From the NCBI GenBank assembly GCA_033439295.1, contig JAVTLE010000017.1:434001-498000 (forward strand): 64,000 nt of DNA, read 5' to 3'. Position 1 is the first letter of the stretch; each line of letters starts with the position of its first letter. A program made the position numbers and the translations under genes. A model generated the notes under the pieces. The model had not been told where the DNA came from, ran no database searches, and saw only the letters and a program-made list of their open reading frames with translations. Of the stretch, positions 3,345 through 58,704 are shown in pieces. This DNA is from Deuterostichococcus epilithicus. Its lineage: Eukaryota; Chlorophyta; Trebouxiophyceae; Prasiolales; Stichococcaceae.

Positions 3345-6325
3345 ATGCAGACTCAGCGTTATTGCTCACAAGATGCGGTCGTTGCAGAAGATGAAACGTC
3401 TGTCAGTCTTGCAGAGCTGCCTGGCCACGTCCTCGAGCGCATCTTGGCGCGGCTGCCCGTGCGACAAAGGTGTGCATGGCTTTCTGTTAACAGACCGCAG
3501 CAGAATGCTATTTGCTGTTGCAATACTCGCCAACGACCGTACCTGCATGCAGGGTACAAGCCCAGGCGGTATGCCAGGCATGGCGCGAGCTGCTGGCGCC
3601 GGAACACAGCCCACTGTGGCAGGCGCTGGTCTTGCCAGCCTCATCCAACACACATAGGATAGATCTTAATTTGGACTATGAGGAGTTCGCCTCGATGCAG
3701 CGGTGGCTGCGGCGCTGCTCGCCGCGGCTGCGCCAGCTGGAGTGCAGCACTCCTTGCATGGCATTAGAGGTGCGCGCACTCAGGCACCGGCACTGGCTCG
3801 TGCACCGCATTCCGCGTTTCAGTCGTCCTCAAAACCATGCTGCCGACTATGCTGCCGGCAGGACTGCCGAAGAGTGCACGTGCAGCGGTGGCATTGCGGC
3901 TTTGGATGCAGCCTAAAACTCGGCCATTGACAGGATAACCCGTGCCCCCAAACGCAGTTCGAGGAGGAGGTGAGCCTGCTCAACACGGTGCTGGTGCCGC
4001 TGTGCTACGCTGGGCTGCTGGAGGCCCTGCGACTAGACGGCCTGGCGGGCGCAGCACTCAACGGCGACAGCCTGTCGTGCATCAGCTCCTTTCTCGGCGG
4101 CAGCCTGCGCCAGCTTGCCATAATTGATATGCAGCAAGTGCCGCACAGCGCCGCACTCAACCTTGTCAGCAGCCTGCCACTGCTGCAGGTATGACATACT
4201 GCTGCTCACTCGTCGGGCACAATACACTCAAAAGTTCGTTCGTCACGAGCTCCGCTGCTATGCCACTCATTTGCGTGTTGATTGAGCTGCAGCCTGCCGG
4301 CCGAAGTGCAGACGGTATTGCACAGGAAGACATATTCGTCCTTCAGCCAACGACCCAGTCAAGGCCATCCACCTGCAACTAGCCATGCAGATGAACACCT
4401 CATATCTCGATGTGCAGGAGCTGGCGATGACTTCCAAACAAAGCACAACTCTATGCACAGGACCTGGCAACCGCCGAGATGCTGGGGAAGGATGGCGTCT
4501 GGGCGGAGGACCCGCCGAGGGAATCACTCGCCTTCTGAAAGTCTGCAACGATTCGTGATCTCTGCCTGCAATGGTGTCCAGGACCTGGCGATGACTTTCA
4601 ACAGGCTGGAGGACGATGAGAGCGTCTGGGTGGAGGACCCGCCGGAACTGGTGCAGCTGCTCGCCGCCGCCGCGGACCACTGCCCCGCGCTTCGGTCGCT
4701 CGCGCTCGCGGTTTGCGACGACATGGGCTACGACCAGCCCTCCGCCAGGCGTCTGCCAGAACAGCTTTCGGCGCTATCGCGGGTGACCGCCCTGGCGCTG
4801 CACGGCGTGCCGCTGACCGGCTTGGGCCCGCTGACGGCGCTGACCGCGCTGAGCCGGCTGTCGCTGGTCGATTGTGCGCCGACTGGCGTGCCTGGTGGCC
4901 AGCCGCTGCGGCATTCGCTGTCGGCGCTCACAACCCTGCACACCCTGCAGGTGCGCGGAAATTGCGTGTAAGTGCTGTCCTGCTGATCATTTCTCAAGCC
5001 TGAAGAGCCGGAAACCAGCGCTGCACGAGTTCTATGCCTGCAACTTGGATCAGCCATTGACTCCGGGCGTCAGCCACACACAGCTGTCATGTAGCCTGCC
5101 ATCCAATCAGTGCCGGCATCCGCCATCCACTGACCAACCTCATGACCATGCCGTAGGCCAGTGGCCTCTCCTGGGATGACGATCTGCCATCGAGCCTGAC
5201 CAAGCTGGTACTGCTGCAAGACAGAGTAGACCCATGGCAGCAGGAGGACCAGCAGCGGCTGTTTGGCGGCTTTGCCAAGGCGCGGCTGCCGGGACTGACG
5301 GCCCTGCACCACCTTGCCATTCGTAGCGCCATTGGGTGGCTGCAGCCGTACGTGTCCGCTATTGTTGCTGCGGTTGGCGCCATGCCACAATTGCGCAGCC
5401 TGCACCTGGTGAGTCACCGGTGGGCATGCCTGCGTCATGCCCCGCGCTGCTGTGCCGCACAGCGTCATGCCACTGCTCAGCTCGATGATTGGCAAAATGC
5501 TCATCCTGCCTTGCTGTCTGCAAGCCAAGTGCAGCCGCGAGCTTACGCAGAGTGGCACCTCCACGATAGATGGCTGAACCGTAGTGCTGGCCGCAGGTGA
5601 AATGCCGACTCACGCAGCTGCCGCCGGACCTGACAGGCCTCGCGCGGGTGCAGCTGCTGGACCTGCGCAGCAATGCGGAGCTGGTGTGTGACGACATGGC
5701 ACTTCTGACCGCCGGTCTGGATCACCTGACAGCCTGCCGCACCATCGACCTTCGCACTGGCCGGTGTAGATATCCCTTTAGGTATGTCGCACAGTGTTCT
5801 CCTATGTTTTCTGACTCATTCCTTGTGTGAAGCCGCGTCTTGGGAAGCTGCAGGCTGGGATGTGCCCTGTGCTGCGGCCCATGCGCTGCACAGTCAGGCC
5901 TCTAGAACGTCGCATGTCAGTTGTCGCACAGGCTGCTTCAGCGCTGGGAAACACACGCTCCAGGCGATGCGGTGGGCACACCCTTATCCATTGCCTGCCC
6001 CGTGAAAGGGCAGCATCTGTCGGACATTGGCAAGTGCAGGCCCGGCGCCGTGGCGGTGCTGGCACGCATGCCCGCACTGGAAACAATTGTCTCCGTGGGG
6101 TTGACGCGCGGCGCACACGAGGTGCTACTGGCTGAGCTGAATACGATGCGCGCTGCGCGCCTGCCGCCGCCGCCGCCGCTGCGGCTGGTTGCGGACTGCG
6201 ACAAGTCGCGCGGCTGGGGCCGGGTCGACGTGGAGCTGCCCTTCGAGAAGGCGGGGCCGCTGCTGGGGCAGCAGCTGACACGGTCTGTGCTGCAGGCAGT
6301 GAGCGATTGTCACTATAAGGTTTGA
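3345..6325 (+). CDS. F-box/leucine-rich-repeat protein, complete, seven exons, 554 residues
   Basis: Exons 3345-3469, 3553-3769, 3958-4188, 4582-4950, 5157-5408, 5597-5781 and 6040-6325; all phases close and give 554 residues. An F-box starts near residue 20 (LAELPGHVLERILARLPVRQ, continuing VQAQAVCQAWREL across intron 1). Leucine-rich repeats follow (LEALRLDGLAGAAL, LTALTALSRLSLVDC, VQLLDLRSNAELVCDD), then a C-terminal domain ending DCHYKV. The family links substrates to SKP1-cullin ubiquitin ligases; the role here is inferred. The start at 3345 gives a short leader before the F-box and no better ATG is seen. It is the right-hand member of a tandem pair and faces the zinc-finger gene at 6865-8386. 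The intron before exon 4 holds a decayed copy of the start of exon 4. Confidence 0.85.
4418..4520 (+). repeat. Decayed copy of the 5' end of F-box/LRR exon 4 inside the upstream intron
   Basis: Begins right after a cag (acceptor-like), as the real exon does at 4582. The starts match (gagctggcgatgact against gacctggcgatgact), and so do stretches further in (gcgtctgggcggagg against gcgtctgggtggagg). The middle has extra bases, so the copy cannot replace the exon in frame. See the general finding on exon fossils. Confidence 0.75.
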
Positions 6326-9141: not shown

Positions 9142-12100
9142 ATGGCAGAACAGGGTGGCGCGCAGGGCTCGTCAGGCCACCACAGCGTCGTCATCATCGG
9201 CGGCGGCCTTGCAGGCCTGTGCGCGCCTCTCACATGACGATATGCATGCGGGCTCTGCAGCTAGGTTGTCCAATACTGCCGACATCCGTGGGAAAGTCCT
9301 GCGGGAAGTTCCTACGGTGGTCAGTCGCTCCTGGCGCGGCACCAGCAGCCCACCTGGCCTGGAGCGCGCCGGCCGTCAGAGTCGCTGCTAATGCTGCCGC
9401 GGCATAGCCGGGCTTCCGCCACAGCCTTCCTTGTCCTCGCTGCCTGAAGCCAGATTCTCAAACGACACCATCAAAACATCAAAAACCTACTGCAAACACT
9501 CTATTGCGCCTGCAGGTATGCGGCCCGGCTGCTGCTGCCGCATTTTCCAGACCTGCTGCTGGTGGAGGCGTCCCCCCAACCCGGCGGCCGCATCAAGCAG
9601 GTAGATGATCTGCAGAAAATATCCAGATTGCATACCAGGAGACTCTAGGCACGGTTCTCCTGTACAGCACCCACATTTCCGGCCGCATCAAGCCAGAGGG
9701 GCGCACTGGACCAAGGCGCAGTCTGCACCATGTGCATATGGGCGCGGTCACCAGCCATCCAGCTGCCGAAGTGCAACGTAGGCTCAGCAATTGAGGTAAT
9801 GTTGAAGCTGCCCGTTCTGCTGCCGTCAGGTTGAGGGCATTGCGGAGTGGCCAGTGGAGGCTGGTCCAGAGTTTGTGCACGGCGGCAACCAGCTGCTCAA
9901 GGTCTGTAGATCATATTTTATATATTATTATGTGAAGTTATATGTGTGTATCGCTGGTGTACAAGAAAACTGCGAAACACGACAACCGACGACATCACGT
10001 TTGCATCCTCGCAATGCACACCCGGCTTGGCTGTTGCTGCAATGTATTGGGCATCGCCCTTGGGCATCCCAAGACTTGTCTCGCGGCGGCCTCAAAGCGG
10101 GTCTGGTGGCCACCACAGACCCGTTGCTGCCAGTCACCCTACCATTTCCAATTTTGGGGGAGGTGGCCTGCAGCCACAGGACCATGCGCACATGACCCAT
10201 TGGGCGTGGAATCAGCGAAGTGTGGCTGGGGTGCAACCGAGGCGTGCTCCGACTCGTGTTCGCCTTGCTGCAGGGCCTGCTGGCGGAAATGGGATGCACG
10301 CTGCGCGGGCTGGCGTGGCCTGACCACTGGTGGTGGCCTGCTGATCACCGGCTGAGCCGGCCTGGCACACAGGCATGCGTTTTGCACAATACGCTCGAGA
10401 CTGACGCTCAGCTCCCCTAACATGATGAGGCATCGGCGAGTCCCGCCAGGCGCCGGCTGAATGCCCCTCATGCCTACGTGCAGTTGCTTGAGACTCTCGC
10501 ATGCTGCACCAGCCAGCTTGCGAGGGGAACTGCACGAGGAAGTGTTTCATCTTTCTCACAGGATGCAGAGCTGGAGTGGCTGGAGGAGAAGTTTGGCGGC
10601 ATCGGCGAGTCGGCGCTGCCGACGCCAGACATCTCGGCAGAAGCCTGGCTGCGGCTGCAGGTGCAGATGCGTATTGGGATCGAAACATCTACTCTACCAG
10701 CAACGCACATTGATGCTGCATCACGTACCAGCGATGTTGCGCCCAACCTGAAAAGCGCAACAGCTGCTGCTGCCCCTGGGGAAGCCGGTAATTGCTCGCC
10801 GCAGCCTAGCAGCAAGGGCATTGCGGTATCGTGCAGCAAGCATTGCGGTATCGTGCAGCGGCAGATAGATGCTGTCGTCAGCCCAGCTCACCCAGAAATG
10901 GCAGACAGGCGCCAACGCACCTAGCTGAGCCGACCAACTTTCTGCTACAGGGTGCCAGCGGGCGGGCGCTGGCGGCGGCGGAGGCGTGCTGGGCTAACGA
11001 CTTTGGGTGCGGCCTGAGGGAACTGGGCGTGCGCGAGTTGATCGCCGAGAACAGGGCTTGGGACGCCGGTGCGACCCAGCTGACCATTCGATGTTTGAAA
11101 TGCTTCGCGCTGCCGGGCGCTGGCAGCGGTCTGCCGGGACGTACTCTTGCTCTCCCTGCACACACACTGTGGCATGAGAGGGTGGTCGCGGATGCTCTGG
11201 GACACCTTAGCCACAGTGCGGACCTTCACCCGAATCAAACGAGCAAGCCGGTGCCCACTGGTCGCTGCGCTCTGTTGACAAGCTTGTCCAGTCATCGTCC
11301 CCTGCAACACCGCCACGTCTTGAACTTCAAGAGCGTCTGGTAGCATGCTCCGTGGCTGCACCGAACTCCAACTGCCAGCCGCCAGATGCCGGGCCCGCAG
11401 GCGAGAGCCATCTGCTGGTGGACTGATCGTTGGAGCACAATGCCAGTTGACCTTGCAGCACGATCAGTCCACTGATTCCATAGTCCCCGGCCGCTCCTGC
11501 CGCAGGCAGGAGCCGCCGGCTGTGTGTCAGTCTGGTGCGGGACATTGCGGCAATTTTGTTGATAATTCATTGTTACGGACCTTCAAACCCTGCACCCAAC
11601 CCTCACCCCTGCAGGTGAGAGCTACCTGCTGCTCGACAAGTCGCTGCGCAATTTGGTGACACACCTCGCAGCGCCGCTGGCGGGACGTCTGCGGTGCAGC
11701 TGGCCAGTCAGCACGGTGGCATGGCGGCCGAGGGAGGGGCGCGGCGGCGGCGGCGGCTGCGCATCCGCGACGCTGCACGGCCCGGCCGGCCAGACGCTGC
11801 GCTGCGACCGGTGCACCGCCTCTGTCCAAACCCGGTGTCCGCTCGCTGTGAGGAGCTGGGATTTGCGGCGGCTGCACCATTGCCTCGCGTGCAATCCTGA
11901 TGTATGCCAGTGCTTGAAGTCTGTCAGCACATATGTGCATTGCATCTTGCATCTGCAGGACCCTGTGCCAAGCTTCGTGCTGGAAGAGTGAACCTGGCGG
12001 GTAAATTGGGTCTGGCAGAGTCTGGACGTCAAACAAAATCATGGAAACAGAGGAGCTTGTGCAGCAATCCTGGTGAAAATGCCCCTGTGTTCGCTGTAGA

Positions 12101-14479
12101 GTGCTGGTCACTGCGCCGCTGACGGTGCTGCAGTCTGGCGACATCCGCTTCCAGCCGCCGCTGCCACCGCGGAAACTGGTACGGTGATTCTTTGGGCAAT
12201 GCTGCCGCCTAGCCTCTGGCGCTGGCCATGCCTGTTCCTTGCCTTCTGTAGCACTGACAGCGCTGTGAGCGGTGGTCTGGCATGTCCTCGTCAGACAGCG
12301 AACATGATAACGACTTCTTTTGACGCCATCGCGCACTCACCCGCCTGCAGGCGGCCATTGGGCGGCTGCGGATGGGGACGGCGGTCAAGCTCCTTATGGG
12401 CTTCTCGCATCCAGGTCTGCTGCCGCCTCTCCTGCACTTCTGGGCTCCAACCACGCCGGTGCATTCGGTGCATCACTTGGCAGCCGCTCCCAACACGAAG
12501 GTGGCTCCTCGCTCAGCAGACCAGCCAGCACGAGGCCGTCAAGTTGGAGTGTGCAGTGTGGCCGGAAGGATTCTGGGACGCCATTTGCCCCAGCGCCTTC
12601 CTGCCGGAGCTGTGGGTCACATCCTACCCCGCGCCAATGCACCCGGCCGTCACCCAGGTGCGGCAGACCAGCAGCGGCGGTGCCGCCACCAGCAGCGGCG
12701 GGAGCGGCGGCGGCGCACGTGACGCCTCGGGAGCTGCAGATTCATCTGGTGCAGCGGCGGGTCAGCCGGGCGCCGCGGTCGTGACAGCAGCCGACCTGGC
12801 GACAGCTCCAGCCGGAGGGGGTGGACATGACCACGGCACCAGCAGCGGCGGCGCACAGCCCGCGAGCGGCGGCGTCAGCGGCGCGCTCAGTCCCAGCGGC
12901 TTTGCGGCTGTGCCGTGCGGCGCTCCAGGCGGCAGCAGTGGGTCGGCGCCGGCGCCGGCGCGGCACTGCGTGACGGGCTTTGCGTGCGGCCCGTCAGCTG
13001 CGGCGATATCGGCGCTGCCGCCAGCGGAGGCAGTGCGGCGCGCGCTCGCTCAGCTGGACACCATGTTCGGTGTGCATTCCCTGCAAGTATCCCCTCGTAC
13101 ACAGGGCTTGGAAGTTGCTTCACTTCCTCAGCTGGTGCCCTCCTGTGCATTTCAGCATGCGCCAGTCGCCGCCAGGCGCTGCCCAGCCCACGCCGCCTGT
13201 CCTGCGCCCACTGCCACCTACCAGCACCCGCATCATCGCTGCAAAGACCATGGGAGTGCTGGGTTCCATTCATACCTCGATCGGTCACTGCAGGCACTCT
13301 GGAGCGACCGCGTCCGGCGAGCGACGCCTTCACCCATGCTGCTGTCGTGGACTGGAGCCAGCAGCCCTACATTCGCGGGGCCTACTCCTACCCTACTCTT
13401 GGTATGGCGACCGAGGTGCCAAGCCTCCTGATCAGAACTGACTTGCCCATGTACGCCGCCGCGGTCGTGGAATCTGGAAGCCGCACAATGGAAGGGCTGT
13501 TCCTGCCGCATGCTAGGCGCACACCGCCACTTGTCTTGAGCATATTACCAAAGAGCAATCTGCTCGATCATCTGGCTGGACTCGGACATGTGGGGCGCCA
13601 GATAGCTCTGACGCTGTGGTGGCTGCTCCTGCCGATTGTGGCCGGCTGGTTCAGCCGACCTTGGACGGTGGCACCGCATCTTTCGGCCTTGGGGTCCCTG
13701 CCGAAGCAGCTGCTTGCCAAATCAGTCATTCATGAACGTGCGTGCTATCAGAGTCCGCCAAGAGCATTTTTTGGTTCTTGAACCTTTGGTTTTGGCCTGT
13801 GGGCGCCGAGCTGCGGGACCGCGATGCGCTTTCGGCGCGCCGGTGGGCCGGCAGTCTCTGTGTTCGGAACCGAATGTTGTGTCCTGTAGAGTGGGGAGTG
13901 GTCGGCGAGCATTCGTGTTGACCCGAGCGCAGGCGCCGAGCCGGGAGACCGCGAAGCGCTCGGCGCGCCGGTGGGCCAGACGGTGTTCTTCGCCGGCGAG
14001 GCGACGCACCCTGCCGTCAACCCCTGCATGCAGGCGCGCTCCTCGCCCTCACACATGGGAAGCGGCTGAGACGCTTCATGCTCAGCAGCCACCCCGGCAG
14101 TCCAGGAGCGACACTCTGGCATCGTTGCACTGCGCCCAGCTGTCGGGCATGTCGACTGGTTTGTGGACCCAACAGATGTGCCAAGGGCGGGTGCCGAATC
14201 AGTGAGGATGCAGCCCGACAGCAGGGCTGGCCGCGCAGCGCGCACACATCCCTTTCTATCCACTAACCTAAGATGAGGCGCCCATAAATTGCAGTGTGCA
14301 CCGCCTCGGCATCTTGCACCAGCATCACTGCAGTTCGCAAGCTTGCATGCCGCTGAAGGGAACCACCGTCATCGTATTCGAACATTGCAGTTGCTGGCGC
14401 GCAGGCAGCCCTGGAGACGGGGCAAACGGCAGCGGCACAGATCATTGCGGCCGCCGCTGCGCCGCGCAGCGCGCTGTGA
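9142..14479 (+). CDS. FAD-dependent amine oxidase (polyamine oxidase/LSD-like fold)
   Basis: The start ATG at 9142 is followed by a dinucleotide-binding motif, SVVIIGGGLAGL. Exons: 9142-9218, 9516-9600 (LLVEASPQPGGRIKQ), 9830-9901 (EAGPEFVHGGNQLLK), from 10274 (GLLAEMGCTLRGL; 3' end unsure), 10562-10660, 10951-11068, 11615-11810, 12100-12178 (LVTAPLTVLQSG), 12351-12414 (AIGRLRMGTAVKLL), 12557-13069, 13294-13401 (QPYIRGAYSYPTLG), 13933-14033 (TVFFAGEATHPAVNP), 14405-14479 (ALETGQTAAAQII). Phases close except around exon 4, where a small exon near 10448-10475 may be missing. The motifs are those of flavin amine oxidases, which oxidise polyamines or similar amines; the substrate is not deducible. 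Exon 10 carries a Gly/Ser/Ala-rich insert of roughly 100 residues. The second-to-last intron seems to use a GC donor. No SWIRM domain was seen, so a histone demethylase is less likely. Confidence 0.85.
10818..10861. repeat. Two copies of a 22-base unit in an amine-oxidase intron
   Basis: gcattgcggtatcgtgcagc is repeated at once after 22 bases, between exons 5 and 6. Short local duplication. Confidence 0.85.
11418..11472. repeat. Inverted repeat, 13-base perfect arms, in an amine-oxidase intron
   Basis: gtggactgatcgt at 11418-11430 and its reverse complement at 11460-11472 enclose 29 bases. Looser complementarity continues outward. It could fold in the transcript; no function is shown. Confidence 0.7.
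13802..13858 (+). repeat. Decayed copy of the 5' end of amine-oxidase exon 12 in the upstream intron
   Basis: ggcgccgagctgcgggaccg... parallels the exon start at 13933 (gcgccgagccgggagaccg), and both contain gcgcgccggtgggcc. Offset about 130 bases. The copy breaks off before the FAGEATHP codons, so it lacks the FAD-contact motif and is unlikely to be a usable alternative exon. Confidence 0.75.
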
Positions 14480-20208: not shown

Positions 20209-22911
20209 ATGGCAGCCGCGCAAGCGGACCCCAACGTTGTTGGCAAGGTGCTGGCGGCCGCTAAACCGCATGCGACGCTGCAGTCCGTTCAAGAGTGTAT
20301 AAAAATGCTATTTGTACATGTCTGATCACCGCAACGGACCCTCTCGTGAACTGAACCTGGACAGGTGGTCGTGCCGGGCGATGCGGTGCTGCGCCTACCA
20401 GAGAAGGGCCAGGCGCGTCAGCTTATGTGTGCTGTCAAATCAAACGACAAACCTAGTGGAATGAATTCCACTCTTGAAATTCATGTCCTGCGACAGATCG
20501 GAGCGATCAGAGTGAATATGCCGAGCACTCCACCCAGAACTCTCTGGTAGAATGGCTCCGCTGTGAAGACTGCGCACAGCCTTCCGCGGGGCAGGGCTCC
20601 AGATGGGAAGGGTGCCAATGCAGCCTGAACAGCTCCCACCAATGTGCTTCCTACAGGTGCGGATAGGTCCCGGGCTGCAGCAGTCTGGCGACCACATCGT
20701 GGCGAACCGCGCGGGCGTGCTGCGCTCGGCGCAGGGCGGCAAGCTCTGGCTGGATGGGCGGCAGAAGCGGTGAGCGGCCTGTCTTGAAACGCTGCCTGAT
20801 GTCGCCGGCCCCAGAATAGTGGCTCGAAGGAGGAGGTCACGATGCATGCCGAGGCATGCCTGGCAGGGAGGCGGCTGCTCCCTGGCCGATGCCCGGAGTG
20901 CAGTTACAACGGGAGTGCAGAGCTCACAGCAAGCACAAGATGTAGCACGCTGCGGACCGCGCTGCAGCCGGTGCCGGCCCAGCAGTCCGGCCCAGCCGTT
21001 CTGAGCCTTGGGGCGCACTGTCGAAAGGAGCTTGGAGGGAGGTGGAGGGCTGGCCCGGCCTGTTTCCTCTGGGAATGTAGCCGCTGACTGGCAAAGGTGG
21101 GCAGGCCGGCAGCGGCACCATGTCTCGGACCAGCCGCAGGAACCCGCCGACTGCCAGCGAGTCGGCAGCGGGCACCGAAGCACAAAGCGACACGGCGAAA
21201 CTGTCAGCGTGCACGCTGTAGGACACGGCCCGCACACGGCATTTGTGGCGGGCTGTGCACCAGAGCTGCTCGCTGGGGACGGCAGAGTGGCGTAGACATG
21301 GTGACAGTGTCTCCGCCCTTGTCATGAGAAAGTCGCTACTCCACTCGTCCCTCCGTCCTGTGCTGCAGCTACACGCCGGCGGGCGGCGAGGCGGTGGTTG
21401 GAACGATCCTGGAGAAGCATGGGGAGAGCTTCAGCGTGGACATCAACGGGCCGTGCGCCGCAGTTCTGCCCGTCCTCGCCTTCGAGGCCGCCACGGTGCC
21501 GCTCTGCACCTGCCCACATGCGCGTTTGGGAAACCTTCAAAACCAAGACAGTACAACTTCCACCAACGCTTCGACCCCTGCGCACTCTGGTCGGCATGCG
21601 TTGGGAGGCTCCCTGCCCTTTAGGGTGTGCAGACGGCAGCCTGATGTGTTCTCATGTATCATAGCCGACTCATTATTCCTGCGCTGCCTCTGACGCCGTC
21701 GGGTGGATCCCGCTCCTTGCTCCTGCGCGGCACGGTCCCACCCTGCATGGACTTCACCGGAGGTCATCTTCCCTTCTCCCCCCCCCCCCCCATCCCCCTC
21801 CTGGCCGAGGACCTTGTCTGTGCACTATGCTGCAGCGGCGCAACCGGCCCAACCTCTCTGTGGGCGATGTGGTGTACGCACGTGTGGCGGTGGCCAGCCG
21901 CGACATGGAGCCCGAGCTCGCCTGCACGGACGCCGCCGGCAAGGTGCGGGGTCGAAAAAGTAGAAGAAGAACGGAAAGAAAAGAAAATTCAGGGCTGGAG
22001 TGCAGCGCGGGCGTTTGACCCGAGACCGTCCGACCCAGAGTCGATGGCTGTGCATGCATGGGCCGATTATTGGAACTTCGGCCGGCGTCTGCGCCCCGAC
22101 ACCGCGTAGCCCTGCTGATCTGGCGGCGGAGTCTGGGAGACGGCTATGAAGCCAGAGTGCGCACGAGGCTGTGGCGGCACGCCTGCCGTGGCATCAGAGC
22201 GGCAAGGCTTTGGTCTCAAGAAATGTGTGTTCTGGCGGTGCGCGGCTCTGCAGACAGTGAACCCTCGCCCGGGCGGTCCGCTGCCCGGGCTTTCGTGCAG
22301 GCTTCCGGCTTCCTCCGCAGCTGGCGAGCGGATGAGCATTCTCGGTGCCGGCATTGCAGACGCGCGCCCCAAACCCCGAACTCTGACGGCCCAGTGCGCG
22401 CTCTCATCGTGCAGGCGTCGGGCTTCGGCCCCCTGGCGGGCGGCTACGTGTTTTCAGTGCCGACATCGCAGGCGCGAGCCCTGCTAGGCTCGCCGCGGCC
22501 GGCCGTGCTGTCGGCGCTAGGTGCGTGCCGGCGTGGGGAGAACCCTGTCGTCGTGTGCTACCCGCCCTCCCCCTGGCCTGCCGCATCCCGCCCTGCGCAC
22601 ATCGCTGGCAGCTTGCCTGGGTGTACCAGGCAGCTGCAACAGCGCACAGCGTGGAGGTCGAGGTCTGTGTGCTGACACGCTGCAGCTCCCTGTGAAGACC
22701 CGCAGCAAGTGCATTGCGAGACCCTGCGTCGGCACCCGCAGGAGCGGCGCTGAAGTTCGAGCTTGCCGTGGGGCTCAACGGCCGCGTGTGGGTCGCCTCG
22801 GCCGACGTGGCGACCACGATCGTGGTGGCCAACGCCGTTCAACAAAGCGAGGCGCTGTCGGAGGTGCAGGCGAAGGTTTTTGTCAAGGTGCGCAGCGCAG
22901 GTCTGGTATGA
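20209..22911 (+). CDS. RRP40: Exosome complex component RRP40 (EXOSC3 homologue)
   Basis: Seven exons: 20209-20247 (MAAAQADPNVVGK), 20365-20412 (VVVPGDAVLRLPEKGQ), 20657-20769 (VRIGPGLQQSGDHIVANRAG), 21369-21495, 21836-21943, 22415-22520, 22742-22911. All phases close, giving 236 residues, close to plant RRP40. Order: N-terminal domain with the PGD and GPGL motifs; S1 domain (VVGTILEKHGESFSVDING to LSVGDVVYARVAV); KH domain (ELAVGLNGRVWVASADVATT). RRP40 is one of the three S1/KH cap subunits of the RNA exosome, which degrades and trims RNA 3'-5' in nucleus and cytosol. Intron 2 needs a GC donor (CAG|GCGCGT). The intron before exon 6 contains a decayed copy of that exon's start. The last codons VRSAGLV run directly to TGA; a further 3' exon is possible. 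Confidence 0.9.
22301..22374 (+). repeat. Decayed copy of the 5' end of RRP40 exon 6 in the upstream intron
   Basis: Starts after gtgcag, like the exon at 22415. gcttccggcttcctccgcag parallels gcgtcgggcttcggccccct, and gtgccggcattgcagacgcg parallels gtgccgacatcgcaggcgcg. Offset about 114 bases, roughly a quarter of bases changed. Confidence 0.75.
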
Positions 22912-23709: not shown

Positions 23710-26569
23710 ATGGCAGCCGACAAGCTGGGCATGTCCCTGGAAGAAATCATCGAGACAAACGCCCAGCCGCGGGCCTCTGGGCGGGGGAGGCGGGGAGGTG
23801 CAGCAGCAAAGGAGACAGACGGCACAGCGCCAAAGACGCGGGGCGGCGTTCGCAAGGCAGCAGTCAGGCAGCAGCCTCGGAATGCAGCAGCAGCAGAGGC
23901 CAAGGACGGCGGCCGGACGCTACGTCCCAGGCGGAGGCGTCGAGGGTGCGATCTGAGTTGCACACCCCCAGTGCAGCACTTTGTACGTCACGCAGGCGGA
24001 CGCGTCAGAGCTGCATCAGCTGGAATATCGCGCACGCTGCAGAAAGGGACGTCTCTGGTAGGCGGTCAGCTCGTCAAACGGTGCTGCACATGTGCTGAGG
24101 TGGCGCCGCAGCTGCGCAACCCTGGCCCATAAGATCGCTCAGTGCAGTTTGCACACCGCCCGAGAACATGCTTGATGTTAAACTCCATGAGCAGTGCTTG
24201 TCAGAGCCCTGGAAGCACAGCACACGCAACTCCCCAATCTGCGCCTCCGCCAGTGTGGGGTGCCCATATCGGCAGGTTTTCGAATATCCTTGAGAGGTGT
24301 CGAGCTGTTCAACGGCAGGAGGCTAGAGGCTGGATGATATGACGGACGAGACACCTAAGGTGGCCAGTGGGGCTCGCTGGTATTTCCAACTGCGGCATGC
24401 AGACGCATGCACAATGCGCCCCGGAAGACAGAAGGCGCATTTGCCCATTGTTGCAGGAGCCAGACGGGCGAGGACGACGACCTGATAGAAGACGGCCTGA
24501 AAAGCGGCGAGTTCATCAAGGTGGGGTTTCTGACGCATTCTTGTCTTCCTGGGTGTCGGAACTTGCAAGGGTGGCCGCTGGCTCTGGCGGAAGGGCCTGG
24601 CGGCGCGGCCACACTTCGGCGCCGCAGCAGGAAAGCCTGACACCGTGCCGTGCTCGAAGCGGGTGCAAGATGGGCCAGCAGCCACCACCCTTTGCCTGCA
24701 GCTCAACACGATGCAGCCAGGTGAGTGCATACATGCACAGAGCCGCTCAGATACCCTGAGGCGGCCCGTCACGTGCAATTCCTGTCGCAGGTGAGCGGGA
24801 GCAGCCAGACGAAGGCGGTGGCCGGCAAGATCGCGCACGACTCTCGGACGGGCCAGCCGCCGGCGCTGCTGGCCAAAGGGCCTGCTTCCCTGAACCAGGC
24901 CATTAAGGTGGACGCTGGATCATGGCATCTGTTCCCCTGGTGTCGCCCCTGTCTTCATGCACGAAGGCTGGACGCGGAGGCACTTGCACCCTGTTGCATG
25001 CCTGTGATGCACGGCGTGCCGCGGCACCAAGGCAGCAGCAGTGTGAGCCGTCGCCGCCGCCGTCACGCGCCCGGCAAGCCGGCTGCAGCTGCACATGCGG
25101 ACACTGAGCGCAGGACTCGTTAGGCACTCTGACACCTGCAGGCGGTCGCAGTGGCGCGGCAGTACCTTCGGGATGACAACTCGGACCTCACCTGCCAACC
25201 GGCCTTCCGCGACGAGTGCGCTTTGAACCTGTCCTACGATTTCATTGTAGCTTGCCCTTCGCCTGCTCCGCATCTCCAGCAACGCCTTGCCACCGATCGG
25301 CTAACGAGAGTCGCTGCCAGGGCCAGGGTGTTGTTTATGGCCATCAATGCCTCTCGACCATGCGGCAAGGCTGTTGGCATTGTTGATGCCTCCAGACACG
25401 TGCTTCCAGCGCTCTCCAAACGATCGCCCATCCCTGCGCGCAGCAAGCAGATGGCGAGCCTAGCGCTGTACCTGGCCAAGCGGCGGCCCGTCACCTTCCC
25501 CAAGCGAAATGTGCGTGCGCAGATCCTCCGCCACCTCAGCCATGCAGCACCGCCCTGCATTCTGCACTGGCAACGGCAAGCTGACTGCGTTGCCGCAGAA
25601 TTTTTTGAAGTGTCTAGTTTTTAAAATACCAGCCCCTCTGCCGTCCCGTCGACCCGCCTCCTGTCATCCAGGACGAAGCCCTTGTCACACGCGTGAATGA
25701 GATTGGAACGGCAGTCGCCCCTGCACTGCAGGTTCAAGATCTCACTGTGGGCAAAGACAGCAACCCGCACCTGATCGCCGGCGCGATCGCCGCCCGGGTG
25801 AGCGCCTGGCTTGGTCCCTTCCCGATGCTGCTGCCGGCATCTACGACTTACGGCATGTTGAACCCTACACTGGGCGCTGGGCGGTAATTGCGCTGACTAG
25901 CAAGCGTTCAACCAGCGTTTCAAGGGCAGAGACCAGTGCTGCCCGCGGGCATCGTGGGCATGGGGTTGCAGCGCTGACGCCCACTGTAGTGTCTTGTTGC
26001 TCTGGAATGAGGCCCATCCGGTTTTGTCCAAGGTTATTGGATGCAAACCGAGATATAGTGCCGGGTGCAGGTGCGAAAGGACAAGCCAGGGGCGCCAACC
26101 GACGTCTTTCTTCATGATTTGTGAGATGAAGTCCTAATTCACTGCTGGCGCAGGTACGTGAGGACAAGCCGGTGGCGCTAACTAGCATTGGTGACCAGGC
26201 GGCCACGATCGCGATGCGTGCCATCTGCAGCGGCCGCCTGTACCTCGAGGTAACATCCATTGCTGCTGCCACCATGTATGCGCCTTGCCCACACAACAGC
26301 TGGCAGCCGCTGCAGCAGCCCGCAGCGAAACGCACGATCTGCCGCAAGACTGGAGCAATCATGTCACATGCGTGGTGCAGCGTCCAGTGCCGGGTCATTC
26401 GCGCTGTCCCCGCCAGGTTGCCAGTGTGTCTTCTTTGCTCTATGTGCAGGATGACAAGTGCGACATCAAGGCGCTGATCGAGTTCGAGAGCGTGGAGAAG
26501 GTCGCGGGACGGGGCAAGGGCTCGACGCTGAATGCGCTGCGCTTCAATATTCTGGTGGAGGATGTGTGA
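23710..26569 (+). CDS. Protein with two SpoVS/Alba-like modules and an ALY/REF-like N-terminal motif
   Basis: Eight exons: 23710-23945, 24457-24520, 24791-24907, 25142-25215, 25444-25510, 25672-25797, 26154-26249, 26450-26569. Phases close exactly, giving 299 residues. Residues 1-20 (MAADKLGMSLEEIIETNAQP) resemble the UAP56-binding motif of ALY/REF export factors, followed by an Arg/Gly/Ala-rich stretch like RGG regions and an acidic linker (GEDDDLIEDGLKSGEFIK). Module 1, about residues 100-190: VSGSSQTKAVAGKIAHDS, GPASLNQAIKAVAVARQYL, DLTCQPAFRDDKQMASLAL. Module 2, about 200-299: VGKDSNPHLIAGAIAARV, ALTSIGDQAATIAMRAICSG, DDKCDIKALIEF, ending NALRFNILVEDV. SpoVS proteins are small Alba-related nucleic-acid-binding proteins known mainly from bacteria. 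RNA or DNA binding here is inference. The intron before exon 7 holds a decayed copy of that exon's start. Confidence 0.8.
26071..26100 (+). repeat. Decayed copy of the 5' end of SpoVS-like exon 7 in the upstream intron
   Basis: After gtgcag, gtgcgaaaggacaagccagg parallels gtacgtgaggacaagccggt at the real exon start (26154). Both continue with gcgcyaac. Only about 30 bases are recognisable. Confidence 0.65.
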
Positions 26570-36500: not shown

Positions 36501-39500
36501 CCGCCACTACGCAGACGCCCAACCATGTGTGCTGTGCGGTGGAGGCCGTCCGACAACTCCTACTGCCAATGCGAGTTATATAAAAGCTCGGCAACAGACC
36601 TGAAATGGCGCATGCCGTGCCCAGAGCCCGTGTGTGGGCTGGCCCTGCCGTCGCCAGCACCGCCGCCGGAACCGTTTGCCGCCACCGACTCAGGCACCGC
36701 GGCAGCCTTGAGCAGCTCGCCAGCAATGAGCTCGAAGATGGTTTTCTTGAGCACGTTGCCTTGTGAGAAGCGCTGCAGGCACGACAGCGCAAGTCGGCTG
36801 ATCTCGCAGGTCTGATAAAGGTCGATAGCATAGTTCCAAGGGCGACAGTCAGCAGTCACCGCTGGCATGGCTAGCTGGCCGGGCTCCAAGCATTACGATG
36901 ATCTGTGTTATCTGGGAAGGTTCTGCATCTTTGGGAAATACAGATGCAACGAAAACCTATTGATGCTGCCTTGGAAAGCGTCGCAGGGTGGCAGACTTGC
37001 ACATGGCTGTACCCCGGCCTGGTCCAGCGGCATTCCGTAGCGAGTAGTACTTGAAGATTAACCACCCGTAATCTGCCACACCTCATCCTGGACTCGGTTC
37101 CATGGTCAAGGCAGCTCACCTGCACCCGTTGCACGACGGTCTGGTCCAACGGCTTGCCCGTGCCACGGTCAGCGCTGGTGCCGCGCAGCCAAGGGTGCGT
37201 CAGCGCCTCCCTTGCCGTTGGCCGCTTCGTCGGGTCCCTGCATGAAAGATATGTCAAAACTTATGTTCGAGCTTATATGCGAGGTCCCACTCTTGATGTC
37301 GCCAGCACCTCCCTCGCCGCCGGTAGCTGCGCAAAACCCTGCTAGAACACATTTGCGTCGGTATCGAGTCCACCCTGTGTCGCCAATGTCTCCACTTGCA
37401 GTGCTGCCAACGCCTCCCTTGCCGTCAGCATCCTTTTTGGGTCCCTGCCGAGACCTCATGAAATCATCAGATACTCTTCGATGTTGCTTACTATGACACC
37501 GCTCTGGATCCAGGGTTCGGAGTACAGAGAAGGTTGCTGCCCAGACTTCGCAGTACACGAGCCCCGCTGGCTGAGCTGAGGGCAGCACTGGCAAGGTGCC
37601 AGATGTCCCCTACAGCTGAGCACCAGCACAGCTCGAGCGCTGCGAAGGGATATGGGAACGTTCAGTGGAAAAAAGGATCAGGAGAGTGACAGAGCAACCG
37701 CATAGGTGTGCAGGGTTCACGGCAAAGTCACACCAGGAAACAAGCCAAATCATCAAGAGCAGCAGACCGTTGCTCAGCAGGATGCACGAGCGGGGCAGAC
37801 GGAAAACCGCGCGTGTCGAGACGCAGGAGTACGGCCATGCAAGAATACGAAAGCGCACTTGTTGAGCAGCAGCAGCACGAAGTTCTTTGCCTCATCCGAG
37901 ATGTCTGCCCAGGCGTTGCCCGTCAGCTTGGGCTCCTGCCCAAAGATCGCCTGCCTGCGGCGGCGGCAGGAGAGAAGGTGTCTTAGGGTGGAATGAACAA
38001 GCTGAATGAAGGACTGCCATCTTGGCCTCCTGCCTACAGTTCGCCTCCTAGCGGCGGTGGCAGCACCCGGTGAGGCATCCATTGATACCCTTCAGCCTGA
38101 GAGACGCAGCACTGCGCGAGATCTAAAACGTCGGCGTCGGCACTGGCGTGCTGAGGCGGCCGAGCCACGCAGCCGACCCCGAAAGTCAGGCTGCTTCCCA
38201 AGCCTCCGATGGCAAGACCCAAGGCGGCGACGCAGAAGCGGCGCACTGCATGTCCTCGATCCTCAGCCATATCATCGAAACAGAATTCCACCCACATCAA
38301 CAACACTTATGACTCATCATCCAAATGCCGCCGAGATAACTTGACGCCAACAGCACAAGACGAAAAGACGTAGTTCGGGGTTTAGACCGACTATTTGACT
38401 GTGGGGCGCACCAGATCTTGGACACTGCGGGCGCCCGTGGGTTGCTGCGATCGTCGAAGGGCAGGTACCCCGACAGCAGCTGGTATGCCATCACGCCGGC
38501 GGCCCACACATCCGCGGGGGGCCCCACCTCGCACTCCAGCACCTCCGGCGCCATGTACCTGAACCGGCATGTGCATTCTGTGCATATTCCTGCAGAAGTT
38601 GTAGATCTCGTTGCACCGCAGCGCTATCTGAAACCGGATGTCCCACCTCACAGTCCAGCATTTCCAGCGCCGTGCAGCTGGCTTTTGGGTGTCATGGCTG
38701 TCCACACAAAATCGAGTCGTCGGCACGCGATCTCCCCCTCCCCCCCGGCCGCCCCTTCTCCCCAGCAATGCCGCAACCCGTCTGCAGTGGCCTCTGAGCG
38801 GCCTCCTGCAGTGGGTGCCCGCCACCGACAGTTGTGGACGCCAATCCACAACCCGGTTCAGCCCTGGACGGAAGGAGCCAGACAACATGACAAATTTTCC
38901 GGGTTTATCAGGTTGGACCTAAACCCTGAAGAGGCGCACCAGGGGGTACCCTCCAGGCCTAGGTCGGTGCGCGGCAGCGCCTCCGGGTTGAAGAACACCG
39001 CCAGCCCAAAGTCTGTGGCGCAAGCGGGACACACATCGATTTGACGCACAAGATACCCGAGGAGTCTGCACATGCGAGAAACGACAACGATGTACGTTTG
39101 TAAACACACAGAACAACACTGCCAGCCCGAAGTCTGCGGCAAACGAGGGACAAGGTATTGGTTGCGACGTGTCGAGATGTCGCGGGCGGGAAGCCGGCAG
39201 CTCTTACAGTCTCAGAGGCAACGAGATTCGAGGCAGCACTGCAAGATTGAACAGAACGTGCGAGGATTCGTCGGGGTTTTCCAAGGCACAGCTGACTGTC
39301 AGCCAGCAGGATCTCAGGTTACAGTTGTAGAGCGCGATCAGTATGTGAATACTTGCCAATGGCCTTGAGCGGCGCCTTGGGCGAGTCGGACAGCAGCATG
39401 AAGTTGCCGGGCTTGATGTCGCGGTGCAGGATGCGGTGGCTGTGGCACTGGCTGATGGTGCGCATTGTTGCCCGCATGTAGCTGGACACCTGTGCGGGAC

Positions 39501-40748
39501 AGACGAACAGGAGTCAGCTGTCTGAGCCAGTCATGTGTTCACTGTCGCGACTGGCTGATGTAGTGGTCGCTGCCCCCGCGCTGCCCCCATGCAGCTGGAC
39601 GCTTGCGTACGACATGGGAAGCATGTCAAGGAATTCCAATTTCGAATGTTTTCCAAGGAAGATTTCGTCAGGCAGTCGTGATTTCGGTTTTGCCAGTGCG
39701 TGCCGTGACGCATGCAATTGGCCAACCCCGGCGGGAGCTGCCCTACGCCTCGACTATCATGCAAAACGCGGCATCATGCTGACCGAAATGACAGATTGCC
39801 GGGGGGGTCTGGCAGCCTGTCTAGCGCATGCTACAGCCAGAAGCACATAGTTTGGACAAGCCCCCGATTACGAACAAAGAATGGGTGGTGATATGCCTCT
39901 TGACTGCAGCAGAGGAGCGTTGCGAGGCACTCCACGGAACCAGCAACTTGCCGTCTTCTCGGAGTAGTGGGCGCGGCCGATGCGGTGCCACAGCTCGCCG
40001 CCCTTGCACCACTCCATGACGATGTGAATGTCCGTGTCGTCTTCATAGGCGCCCTTGTACTGCGCCACATTCAGGCTCCCCCGCAGCCGTCGCAGCACCT
40101 GTGGAGCGCGATGCTGCGGTTGTGTACAGCGTTGCGCAGGAGGCTCTCGGAGCGCGTGGCATGGCTGTCCAGCTGTAAGAGAGCGGGCTGAGGCGGCGGC
40201 CCAGCATGCTTTCCCCGGAGCATTGCAATGAATCAGCATGTCGACATTTGGCTTCCAGCGTGCTGGAAGCCGCCAGCGCCGCAGTGGAGAGAGGCTGCTC
40301 TCTGGCATGCAGGGCACATCATGCAGCTGACCTGAATGCGCCACGAGATGCCGACACAGCACTGCCATGCAGAACGGTTTCAAAATCGCCGCTGCCGCCG
40401 CCGCCGATGGGCCGCGGTAGCAGGCAAATGTTGCATCTGTATCGAGCGAATTGCAAGCCCAGCGATGATTGTGGAAGCCTAATCCCCTACCTCCAGCTCC
40501 CGTTTGACCTTCTCCAGGTGCTGCGCCTGCTTGCCGGCCGACAGGTTGGGCACCGCCAGCCGCTTAACGATGGTCTTGCATGCCAGCTGTTCCCCAGTGC
40601 TGCGGTCCGTCACCACGCGCACAACACCGAAACCGCCGCGGCCCAACTCCTCGCCGAACGTATAACGGTCGTGGAACGTGCGCGGCAGGCCGATGGTAAC
40701 CTCCGAGTCGTCATGCGTTTTGATGTCCCACGCATCCACGCGCGGCAT
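27550..40748 (-). CDS. CDPK-like Ser/Thr protein kinase with long disordered linker and degenerate EF-hands
   Basis: Kinase exons, in transcript order: 40491-40748 (MPRVDAWD start, GRGGFGVV loop, LACK lysine), about 39955-40099, 39362-39487 (HRDIKPGN loop), 38940-39022 ([16 protein letters not shown]), 38413-38560 ([18 protein letters not shown]), 37858-37955, about 37122-37240 ([18 protein letters not shown]). Then [19 protein letters not shown] near 36777, as in CDPK junctions. Disordered or unusual exons follow (35633-35850, 34855-34966, 34330-34475, 33581-33697, 32226-32472, 31820-31960, 31260-31630). C-terminal exons near 30040-30170, 28640-28810, 28100-28480 and 27550-27710 carry poor EF-hands; the last has [14 protein letters not shown]. 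Exact splice sites in the linker are only approximate. CDPKs couple Ca2+ to phosphorylation; Ca2+ binding is doubtful here. An upstream ATG at 40802 is in frame; 40748 is chosen by match to the neighbour. Confidence 0.8.
28886..29080 (-). repeat. Decayed copy of a kinase EF-hand exon in the upstream intron, split by unrelated bases
   Basis: 28886-28960 parallels 28705-28770 (both contain ggacggctccagggc). 29046-29080 parallels 28780-28810 (both contain ccgccagctgctccaccgc). About 85 AT-richer bases separate the two parts. The copy lies on the 5' side of the exon in transcript order. Confidence 0.7.
30428..30585 (-). repeat. Two decayed copies of the kinase exon at 30040-30170
   Basis: 30428-30478 (gctgccctccttgtgactgg) and 30548-30585 (gttgccctcagcgctgctgg) both parallel gctgccctccgcgctgctgg in the exon. 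On the minus strand the last reads [12 protein letters not shown] against [12 protein letters not shown] in the exon. Confidence 0.75.
35111..35263. repeat. Long near-perfect hairpin in a kinase intron
   Basis: 35125-35149 and 35224-35248 are perfectly complementary over 25 bases. Moving inward, the next 27 pair with about three mismatches (ggaggtggcaggcggc against its partner). The centre is aacggtaca-tta-tgtaccgtt, with about 10 unpaired bases on the right side. Weaker pairing continues outward to about 35111/35263. No transposase is nearby. It may be a small inverted-repeat element or a hairpin RNA precursor. Confidence 0.8.
37298..37449 (-). repeat. Two decayed copies of the kinase exon that encodes [13 protein letters not shown]
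   Basis: Copies at 37298-37342 and 37401-37449; the real exon starts near 37240. All three, read on the minus strand, begin after gcag and contain ggcaagggagg or ggcgagggagg. In one shared minus frame they read [15 protein letters not shown] (exon region), [11 protein letters not shown] and [14 protein letters not shown], which shows the triplication plainly. Confidence 0.85.
38637..38680 (-). repeat. Decayed copy of the kinase APE-motif exon start
   Basis: cccacctcacagtccagcat parallels cccacctcgcactccagcac in the exon at 38520-38560. It sits upstream in transcript order. Confidence 0.7.
39111..39150 (-). repeat. Decayed copy of the kinase DFG exon start
   Basis: gaacaacactgccagcccga parallels gaacaccgccagcccaaagt; both then share agtctg near the acceptor. 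The neighbouring kinase gene has no such copy at its DFG exon. Confidence 0.7.
39547..39605 (-). repeat. Decayed copy of the kinase exon preceding the HRD loop
   Basis: gactggctgatgtagtggtc and cccccatgcagctggacgct parallel cactggctgatggtgcgcat and gcccgcatgtagctggacac in the exon at 39425-39487. Confidence 0.7.
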
Positions 40749-41893: not shown

Positions 41894-41933
<40 letters not shown>

Positions 41934-44900: not shown

Positions 44901-47175
44901 ACCCCGGGGGGGTGAGTGGCGGGCTGAGGCGCACTTGTTGAGCAGCTGCTGCACAAAGTCCTTGGCGTCGTCCGAAATGCCATTCCACATGGCGCTCTTC
45001 ATTGTGGGCTCCTGATCCATGATCGCCTTCCTGCGGCACAGCGCATATTGACCTTTAAGCGTCAGGAGTCCCGGCCGGCTGCCTTAAGAATCCTTGTGCA
45101 GTCCACAGCGAGACGGGCCTGCTGACCTGGACTGACGCTGGGACTCGAACAGCCATTTGCAGCGAGCCTGGCAGACAGGCGGCAGCTAGGAAACCCGCCG
45201 GCATGTGTCCATGTGCTTGCAAGATGAAGCTGTCAAGAGAAGGTTCGACGCACCATATGCGAGCAACGGAGGGCCCCTTGGGGTTGGTGCGGTCGTCGAA
45301 CGGCAGCTGCCCAGACAGCAGCTGGAAGGCCATCACGCCGGCGGACCAGACGTCGGCGGGCGGGCCCACCTCGCACTCTAGCACCTCCGGCGCCATGTAC
45401 CTGTCGCATTTTTCGCACCATATCTCAGTCCGAGCTTGGATCTGCACGCCTTCCAATGTTGAGAAGGCACAACCTCGCACTGCAGCACCTGCGGCACCGT
45501 GTGCCTTCTGCCCTGAACAAATGGTATGTCAAATGGCGAGCAGCGGCAGGGTGGGCGGCTGAAGGTGGTGTGCGCGGCGAGAGCAGCCACACGACAGTGC
45601 GCATCAGACCTGACAAACGCGTGTGCTGGCAGACAAAGCGTAGGCGGAGGCGGTTCAATATCGTCGACGACTCGCTTTGTACACCCTGTGAGGATCATGG
45701 AGGGTGAACAGACACACCATGGCGTGCCGCCCAGGCCCAGGTCGGTGCGTGGCAGCGACTCCGGGTCATAGAACACCGCAAGCCCAAAGTCTGCATCGGC
45801 AGCAGCAGCAGCGTTAGCAGCAGCAGGGGTCAGTTCCCATGATGAGGAGGCACTGACAGCAAGGGTGTCTGGAGGCTCAGGAGGGTTGTTTCGGGGCAGG
45901 TGCAAGGAGCCAGCGCCGTCTTAGGTGCCTCTGTCTGGCGGCACACCTGGCGAGACCGGCAGCACACCAGGCCTGGGCTCCCACAGGAACCACTGCTGGC
46001 TCAGGGCAGGATCACGCGTTTCGCGTCGGCAAAAGACTCACCGATGGCCTTGAGCGGCGCCTTGGGCGAGTCGGATGCCAGCAGAAAGTTCCCGGGCTTG
46101 ATGTCACGGTGCAGGATGTGGGCATTATGGCAGCGAGCCACCGTGCGCAGCACCGCCCGCATGTACCTGGCCACCTGTGAAACAGCCCACATACAGACGT
46201 CGGCTGGGTGCGACAACAGTGCGCTGAGTTGTCATTCAGCGCGACATGTCCACGCATTGGCGCCTGCTGCTCCTGATTCGCCCTCTCAGCTTTGGGTCGA
46301 AGCGACCCGATCCTGAAGCCGCCCGCTGTGCCTCCTGCCTTGCATTCGCCGAGGTATGAGAAGCGAGTCGAAAGGCGACTAAATGCGACTCACCGTCCGC
46401 TCGGTATAGTGCGGGCGGCCCACGCGGTGCCACAGCTCGCCGCCAGTGCACAGCTCCACAAGGATGTGGATATGCTTGTCGTCCTCGTAGGCGCCCTTGT
46501 TGCGCGCAACGTGCGGGCTGCCCCGCAGCCGCCACAGCACCTGCGCAGCGGTAGCGGGCCTGGAATTCAGCACGCCTTGAGCTGCCCGTACCCGTGTCAG
46601 CCTGCTCGGTAGCTGCCTGTCCGCAAGGCAGCATATTTCCAGGCAGGTTCAATGTTGAGGATGCAAATTTGACACTTCGCAAAATTGATCACGCCGCCGG
46701 GACACCATGCTCTACAACATGCTTGCAGGCACATGCCACATGCCGGCTGCGTGTGCGAGTCTGTGGCTGCTATATGCAGGTACTGATGCCTGTTCAGCGG
46801 TACCCCGCGGCTGTATCTGGTAAAGACTGGGCTCACAGCCGCTGCTGCAGCGCAGCTTCAGACCGCGCGCAGCCTGAGCTGTGCAGCCGGTCTGGCGTAC
46901 GCTTCGAGGTAGCGACCCACCTGCAGCTCCCGCTGGATGGTGGCCAGGTGCTGCGCCTGCCGCCCGACGGTGATGTGCGAGCCCGGAGGACGCTTCGGGA
47001 TGCTCTTGCACGCCAGCCGCTCGCCGGTCAGCCGGTCTGTCACAACGCGCACAATGCCAAAGCCGCCGCGGCCCAGCTCATCGCCGATCACATACCGCTG
47101 GTGGAATGTGCGCGGCAGCTCCAGGGTGACCTCCGCATCAGCGGTAGCCACTTCCCAGGCATCCACTCGGCCCAT
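41710..47175 (-). CDS. CDPK-related Ser/Thr protein kinase without EF-hands (tandem paralogue)
   Basis: Start MGRVDAWEV at 47175. Exons, in transcript order: 46921-47175 ([12 protein letters not shown]), about 46394-46541 ([14 protein letters not shown]), 46029-46174 ([11 protein letters not shown]), 45719-45799 ([16 protein letters not shown]), 45262-45402 ([18 protein letters not shown]), 44930-45022, 44566-44690 ([18 protein letters not shown]). All kinase landmarks are present and match the neighbour exon by exon. Further exons match the neighbour's linker (MFEV near 43750; [16 protein letters not shown] near 43210-43300; QKRPAS near 42500-42880). The segment equal to [16 protein letters not shown] is replaced by [16 protein letters not shown], so the junction helix is lost. 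The last exon, 41710-42360, is Gln/Pro/Ala-rich with a GCC-encoded Ala run and ends PVSVR. An active kinase is likely; Ca2+ control is unlikely. Confidence 0.8.
41845..41855. other. Undetermined bases inside the last kinase exon
   Basis: N at 41845-41846, 41848-41850 and 41853-41855, next to the GCC repeat; the reading frame here is uncertain. Confidence 0.95.
41896..41934. repeat. GCC trinucleotide tract (poly-alanine coding on the minus strand)
   Basis: About 13 uninterrupted gcc units. On the minus strand of the right-hand kinase it is read as an alanine run. Length variation between strains is likely. Confidence 0.9.
43039..43169. repeat. Imperfect intronic repeats of about 20-40 bases
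   Basis: tcatgccgtacgcactgaag (43040), tcatgccgtacacatcgaaa (43111) and tcatgccgtatatagcaaaa (43132). The first and last are followed by ggcagtggggaggttca and ggcagtggtatggttca. Confidence 0.75.
45470..45504 (-). repeat. Decayed copy of the right-hand kinase APE-motif exon start
   Basis: cctcgcactgcagcacctgc parallels cctcgcactctagcacctcc in the exon at 45370-45402. Separate from the similar copy in the neighbouring gene, because the flanks differ. Confidence 0.65.
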
Positions 47176-55684: not shown

Positions 55685-55974
55685 TGCTTTTCATGCATGC
55701 CCTGTGCGGATCTTCAGATCAGCTCGCGAATGCTGTGCTCCCGACTCTCACATCACTTGGCAAACCCCGTCATCTTTGACTTGAAACAAAAGTTCGAGTA
55801 ACATCCTGTTGCTGAGCGGATTGTCCTGGACATCGGCCTGATCGACTATTCTTCACATATTCACAGTGCACAGCCCGCGGGCACTGCAGCACCGTCTTGA
55901 TTGCTCTGCATTGGAGAGCTCCATCCAAATCCATTAACACGGTTGCGTTAATCGGAGCTGCTGCCGGCGCAGTA
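55685..55974. promoter_or_regulatory. Divergent promoter region between protease and lipoate-ligase genes
   Basis: 290 bases separate the two start codons, which point away from each other. It must contain both promoters and 5' UTRs. No clear TATA element identified. Confidence 0.5.

Positions 55975-58704: not shown

Follow-up and report, generated by a model that had tools for sequence, protein, structure and literature searches.

Decayed copies of exon edges in introns of Deuterostichococcus epilithicus, probably left by old small tandem duplications across splice junctions

Genes of the window and copies of their exon edges

The window is the whole stretch of 64,000 nucleotides analysed here, with a G+C content of 59-67% per 4-kb block, and it comes from a genome of 46.8 Mb assembled in 21 contigs. 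It carries an F-box/LRR gene, an amine oxidase, RRP40, a SpoVS-like gene, two kinases (left and right), exons encoding EF-hands and a lipoate ligase. Pfam searches of five gene models from the whole analysis recovered the domains of amine oxidase, RRP40 together with SpoVS, lipoate ligase, PFK and an MRS2-like protein; the search of the model that contains the F-box/LRR gene found neither F-box nor LRR. The kinase motifs are visible in the translations, and the kinase names are those of the first-pass annotation of this DNA. SpoVS, which Pfam lists as a stage V sporulation protein, is a domain of a multi-exon gene adjoining RRP40 (24457-26569), and the gene model fuses the two genes. Isolated N bases at 16614-16674, in a G+C-rich predicted coding stretch, suggest low-quality base calls of the assembly.

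Exons and introns are predictions of a self-trained gene finder, retrained once, which gave 736 exons and 719 introns (median lengths 106 and 218) in the 337,262 bases that were scanned. About 9% of the predicted donors have GC instead of GT, a figure that the gene finder may inflate.

The first-pass annotation had claimed, for 13 exons of the window, that the preceding intron holds a decayed copy of the start of the exon. Eleven of them hold in at least one test; the copy near the HRD exon of the left kinase is weak, being seen only in a looser scan and absent from both stricter lists, and the second EF-hand exon is ambiguous in that the gene finder calls both copies exon. Moreover, the window has cases beyond these 13, for example at exons 37859-37954 and 30043-30165, the latter with two copies. 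All are collected in Table 1. The tandem kinase paralogues had also been said not to share their copies, which does not agree with the copy of the APE exon found in both (spacing 119 and 104); the introns of the two kinases are too diverged to tell a shared copy from independent ones.

Table 1. Exon-edge copies in the window, with the exons they resemble (positions in the window; spacing in bases)
Feature	Position	Strand	Spacing	Remarks
Shorter second repeat, F-box/LRR exon 4582-4950	4411-4437	+		
Copy of the start of F-box/LRR exon 4582-4950	4454..4517	+	121	Found in several scans
Real F-box/LRR exon	4582..4950	+		Gene finder; paralogous stretches 77-81% identical
Weak copy, start of amine oxidase exon 11615-11810	11360..11461	+	215	Score 117; exon identity 0.63
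Copy, start of amine oxidase exon 13933-14033	13786..13851	+	126	Pfam Amino_oxidase
Copy, intron end and RRP40 exon 22415-22520	22293..22402	+	114	Pfam RRP40_S1, KH_6
Copy, start of SpoVS-like exon 26154-26249	26062..26099	+	83-85	Pfam SpoVS
Copy, start of EF-hand exon 27550-27698	27771..27848	-	125	
Copy of the end of exon 28137-28342, in the following intron	28014..28077	-	118	Opposite polarity
Two copies, start of exon 30043-30165	30410-30482, 30551-30595	-	~310, 418	
Copy, start of left-kinase RDP exon 37120-37237	37401..37509	-	206	
Copy, start of left-kinase exon 37859-37954	38012..38065	-	94	
Copy, start of left-kinase APE exon 38412-38558	38634..38680	-	119	
Copy, intron end and start of left-kinase DFG exon 38940-39012	39111..39152	-	121	
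Weak copy near left-kinase HRD exon 39357-39489	39552..39620	-	115	Looser scan, score 111
Copy, start of right-kinase APE exon 45254-45400	45466..45506	-	104	
Two tandem copies, intron end and start of lipoate ligase exon 56741-56885	56449-56530, 56582-56662	+	134-153 per step	Pfam LplA-B_cat in the model
Two weaker copies, lipoate ligase exon 58630-58700 and intron end	58311-58423, 58506-58578	+	241, 121	

Frequency of the copies and their position around exons

The scanned set was composed of the window and 32 other loci: 25 random stretches of 10 kb (20 and then 5, taken from one random list and falling in 16 of the 21 contigs) and seven loci from a kinase search. Locus L006 was left out of the scans because it lies within L024, and three further loci (L034-L036) served only for the comparison of the F-box family. 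The main scan looked for local direct repeats under a low-complexity filter, at a score of at least 110, and its controls were dinucleotide-shuffled sequences whose pairs were refined like the real ones. It found 99 pairs in the 337 kb against 8.5 per shuffled set, and at a score of 150 there were 45 against 1.1; decayed copies of exon edges in introns are therefore real. A gapped, banded self-alignment scan was discarded, since even under its strictest filter, at score 85, it gave 431 real against 646 shuffled pairs.

An exon edge in the expected direction is present in 52 of the 99 pairs, and in 46 of these the second copy is intron-only. Identity and polarity figures rest on those 46; the remaining 53, which were excluded, are of mixed, exon-exon, intron-only, both-edge, reversed and intergenic classes, together with six that have exon on both sides. 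As for introns, 44 of the 46 copies fall in 678 interior introns, 35 of which carry a recognisable copy, about 1 in 20 in the sampled parts of the genome. These are 12 of 116 introns within the window and 23 of 562 elsewhere, so that copies extend beyond the window, as had been supposed. No dispersed family was found among the copies: 44 of the 46 have no match in the 337 kb outside their own neighbourhood, and two do. When introns were compared between loci, three pairs passed E<1e-6, each of them linking L023 to the F-box/LRR-like part of the window.

The polarity of the copies had been described as almost always the same, with the copy upstream of its exon in the sense of the transcript. 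This stands within the window, where exons with an upstream and with a downstream copy are 12:1, and it fails in the random stretches, where they are 13:14, the kinase-search loci giving 0:2 (Fisher p=0.013 for the window against the random stretches; p=0.006 against random and kinase-search loci together, 13:16). Copies in the random stretches thus span 3' and 5' splice sites about equally, and since the window differs from them, its polarity is a local or chance feature; outside the window copies lie on both sides of exons. A looser repeat scan counted 17:4 upstream to downstream in the window and 18:10 in 200 kb.

The same was seen with a junction test, in which each exon edge was compared with its own intron and with the intron on the opposite side, 200 unrelated intron pieces being the control. 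At z of at least 4, an upstream match was found for 13 of 97 3' sites in the window (control 1), 16 of 398 in the 25 random stretches (control 3) and none of 41 in the seven kinase-search loci (control 1), giving 29 of 536 over all loci (control 5). The corresponding downstream matches of 5' sites were 0 of 100, 13 of 393, 2 of 43 and 15 of 536, each with a control of 0; comparisons with the wrong side gave 1 of 450 and 5 of 450 over all loci (controls 0 and 3). The downstream copy of the window in Table 1 is not among these matches. Of the 15 downstream matches, one of the 13 in random stretches (L011, at 1790) is a decayed copy that was wrongly predicted to be an exon, and two (L004 and L005) are in kinase-search loci. 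A differently scored version of the test, which served for the unit boundaries, gave at the same threshold 4 and 0 matches at 3' and 5' sites in the window and 7 and 16 in the sample (controls 0, 0, 2 and 2).

Two other approaches bear on the two sides of the exon. In an exon-only test at score 100, run with no complexity filter, upstream matches were 36 of 553 in real introns, 30 of 1659 in unrelated and 5 of 553 in reversed ones, and downstream matches were 22 of 553, 55 of 1659 and 3 of 553, respectively: an excess upstream and almost none downstream. A first spectrum of spacings came from self-BLAST of the whole window and from exact 11-mer recurrence; in the latter, repeats between exon and intron were present on either side of exons, with a peak at 100-160 bases.

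Both flanking exons are copied in five of the 35 copy-bearing introns, namely L011:4139-4647 (in eRF1), L016:7210-7756, L017:2667-3262, L018:2178-2681 and 27699-28136 of the window. In all of them except L018, the order by coordinates is exon, its own copy, the copy of the next exon and the next exon.

Gene models were checked against solved relatives for RPA1, eRF1 and a PolA-type polymerase. At two exon ends that have a downstream copy, in RPA1 and eRF1, the protein continues into the next exon with an alignment gap of at most one residue; for the PolA-type protein the alignment with the solved structure stops a few residues before the tested exon end and speaks for frame and strand alone. 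Strand errors do not explain the downstream cases tested, and the eRF1 and RPA1 alignments support upstream as well as downstream copies. In the eRF1 model, 55 residues (98-152) have no counterpart in solved eRF1 and look like the following exon repeated twice in decayed form. The gene finder had called these decayed copies exons (L011:1790-2219), and repeated peptides in the PFK (L032:1609-1850) and MRS2-like (L030:6001-6212) models look like the same miscalling.

Anatomy, decay and age of the copies

The spacing between copy and exon has a median of 128 for the 44 copies assigned to introns, and 30 of them are between 90 and 170; in the window, 15 pairs with an upstream copy range from 83 to 418, ten of them between 83 and 153. 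The alignments take in 15 to 131 bases of the exon. Of the exon, upstream copies mostly contain just the start and downstream copies just the end.

The median identity of the exon part is 0.77 over the 46 pairs with an intron-only copy, and its divergence goes from 6 to 37% in the 45 pairs that have 20 or more exon bases. Of the 46 pairs, 31 contain an indel whose length breaks the triplet frame. By codon position of the real exon, divergence is 24.0% at first, 21.5% at second and 28.2% at third positions; the higher value at third positions is what protein selection acting on one of the copies would give. Repeat-induced mutation is unsupported, as 162 of 640 changes are C to T or G to A.

The intron half of the inferred unit is alike between the two copies (mean z 1.37, SEM 0.35, n=33), compared with the flanks outside the unit (mean z 0.17, SEM 0.20, n=32), which weakly supports tandem units. 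Nine of the 33 units exceed z of 2 and most intron halves are too decayed; in one unit (L029:7735-7958) the alignment runs across the full 112 bases. The strongest repeat made of intron only, at L022:8219-8592, has 173 aligned bases at a spacing of 201 and 81% identity.

Introns with a copy have a median length of 420 against 214 for those without, and 282 after one unit is subtracted, with the caveat that long introns offer more room for matches. This agrees with the stepwise lengthening of introns that had been proposed.

The age of one copy can be followed in the F-box/LRR family. Three paralogues (L034, L035 and L036; two on the same contig, one on another) have the copy of the exon start in the same position, with a spacing of 120-142, and the matched stretches are 77-81% identical; most simply, the copy predates the split of the four paralogues. 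The third of them, L036, has only short predicted exons and may be a decaying gene. Within the family the stretch between copy and exon is the least conserved (identity 0.51), the copy itself being at 0.69 and the upstream intron at 0.67. Gene conversion from exon to copy is disfavoured here, as none of the four copies is most like its own exon.

Young copies are scarce. None of the 93 pairs at a spacing of at least 60 reaches 95% identity and one reaches 92%; for the exon part, 1 of the 45 pairs having 20 or more exon bases is at 92% or more, and the 46th pair has 15 exon bases, all matching. In simulations of tandem duplications arising at a constant rate, about 20% of the detected junction pairs are expected at 92% or more. 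The copies are of different ages, as had been said, and the idea of a steady habit of the present-day genome is not supported. Either the process slowed down, or near-identical units were lost in assembly.

Origin of the copies and comparison with known systems

The best explanation of the copies is, in our view, that they are the remains of old small tandem duplications across splice junctions (probability about 0.6). Many tandem duplications, mostly of 90-170 bases and each straddling one splice junction, would have occurred in this lineage, probably by repair of staggered breaks or by replication slippage. A unit across a 3' splice site would leave a spare intron end and exon start just upstream of the exon, and a unit across a 5' splice site a spare exon end and intron start just downstream. 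If splicing uses the site that is attached to the complete exon, as is presumably the case in vivo, the mRNA would be unchanged and the spare copy free to drift in the lengthened intron, where it would gain frameshifts and end unrecognisable. The duplication rate would have been higher formerly than now. Most likely, then, the mechanism of the first-pass annotation is correct in outline, at both splice sites and mostly in the past: the data support duplications across 3' splice sites of which the one retained copy is that continuous with the remainder of the exon, as well as lengthening, different ages and spread, and they do not support one-sidedness or the steady habit.

Besides the scarcity of young copies, the relation between exon edges and introns fits a steady and blind process poorly, in that intron-only duplicates are too few and the intron halves of the units have decayed far more than the exon halves. 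For 32 junction pairs with a spacing of 80-170, a simulation of blind tandem duplication at equal rates predicts about 23 intron-only pairs, and two are seen; it also predicts a median z of 6.3 for the intron half, against an observed 0.2. This mismatch calls for very fast intron turnover near intron ends or for a process that favours exon edges. With simulated intron turnover 1.5, 2 and 3 times faster, 13.3, 8.6 and 4.0 intron-only pairs are expected, and the threefold value alone fits the two observed (P(<=2) 0.23), the median z falling to 0.4. Threefold turnover is an assumption of the model, and the F-box copy diverges like the upstream intron and not more slowly.

The near absence of intron-only duplicates of the same size leads to a reading that we hold to be possible though rather unlikely, in which copying was tied to exons or junctions and placed exon edges in the neighbouring intron, often without any intron half, for example through nearby-templated insertion during break repair or through breaks concentrated at exon edges. 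A past wave of exon-edge duplication linked to junctions on both exon sides, with a preferred unit of about 125 bases, might have left single-locus relics in many introns of this genome and have nearly stopped since; this, too, we can only put forward tentatively. Besides the deficit of intron-only pairs, such edge copying would account for the intron half being undetectable in most pairs and for the introns with copies of both flanking exons. Against it are the duplicated intron halves in nine of 33 units, one of them across the full unit, and the fact that threefold intron turnover gives both anomalies with no targeting. An error-prone birth of the copies is disfavoured, since it would leave the intron half no more diverged than the exon half.

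It seems improbable that a function, such as that of decoy or alternative 3' splice sites, has preserved the copies. Of 24 upstream copies with an aligned junction, 21 retain the AG, and certain copies have the score of a good acceptor. Twenty upstream-copy pairs extend 12 or more bases into the intron; their last three intron bases match at 52 of 60 positions, compared with 369 of 500 for the exon part next to them (p=0.027), a comparison of small numbers in which one exon is counted repeatedly and alignment is biased towards a matching AG. On the other hand, most pairs have frameshifts, the F-box family copy changes as fast as the intron upstream of it, and GT is kept in only 5 of 11 copied donors.

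Decayed duplicates of whole exons, chance and assembly error deserve, taken together, even less credit. In tandem exon duplication, as with mutually exclusive exons, an exon-like copy lies beside its source, and some of our copies do keep a good acceptor and were called exons by the gene finder; yet mostly one exon edge is copied, and the non-triplet indels of 31 of 46 pairs also speak against duplicated whole exons. Chance is expected to produce about 8.5 of the 99 pairs, far from all of them, and the divergence of 6-37% in the exon parts of 45 pairs is unlike that of assembly duplicates. Least credible of all is an origin in intron birth, with the copies as what remains of an exonic AGGT stretch duplicated in tandem, a process to which the first-pass annotation had linked them: the kind of mutation is the same and is described in other eukaryotes (PMC3443670, PMC2891723), but the spacing (median 128) is far below the length of copy-bearing introns (median 420) instead of equal to it, and the copies lie inside introns at existing splice sites, many copied stretches including an existing intron end.

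If splicing neutralises duplications at intron ends, this is a concrete and datable route to longer introns without transposons, and intron growth would become countable event by event in one genome; whether the process is linked to junctions or blind is now a sharply posed question. There is also a warning for annotators, in that a gene finder trained on this very genome took decayed eRF1 copies for exons, and similar false exons are likely in any ab initio annotation of it.

Among the literature matches listed, in a search that left key older genome papers outside, none described decayed copies of exon edges as occurring throughout the genome of an alga, and the available part of the Coccomyxa genome paper (PMC3446292) does not mention them. 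Introner elements (PMC9860276) resemble our case in that intron content is spread across many genes, but the copies described here have no repeat family, and the 44 of 46 without a match beyond their own neighbourhood in 337 kb rule such elements out. Tandem exon duplication (PMC6071210) also gives an exon-like copy adjoining its source, whereas here one exon edge is copied and the frame is usually broken. In intron gain through tandem genomic duplication (PMC3443670, PMC2891723) the duplication is neutralised by splicing, as we propose, but here an existing intron grows and neither a new intron nor a new pair of splice sites appears. The closest known process would be the short tandem duplication that arises from break repair (PMC8355091), here perhaps neutralised by splicing: both show direct repeats, here probably adjacent, that measure tens to hundreds of bases at a single locus, with no element involved. 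That paper speaks of insertions of less than 100 bp and of fresh events at breaks induced in human and mouse cells, whereas the class visible in this alga is old, mostly of 90-170 bases and found chiefly over splice junctions.
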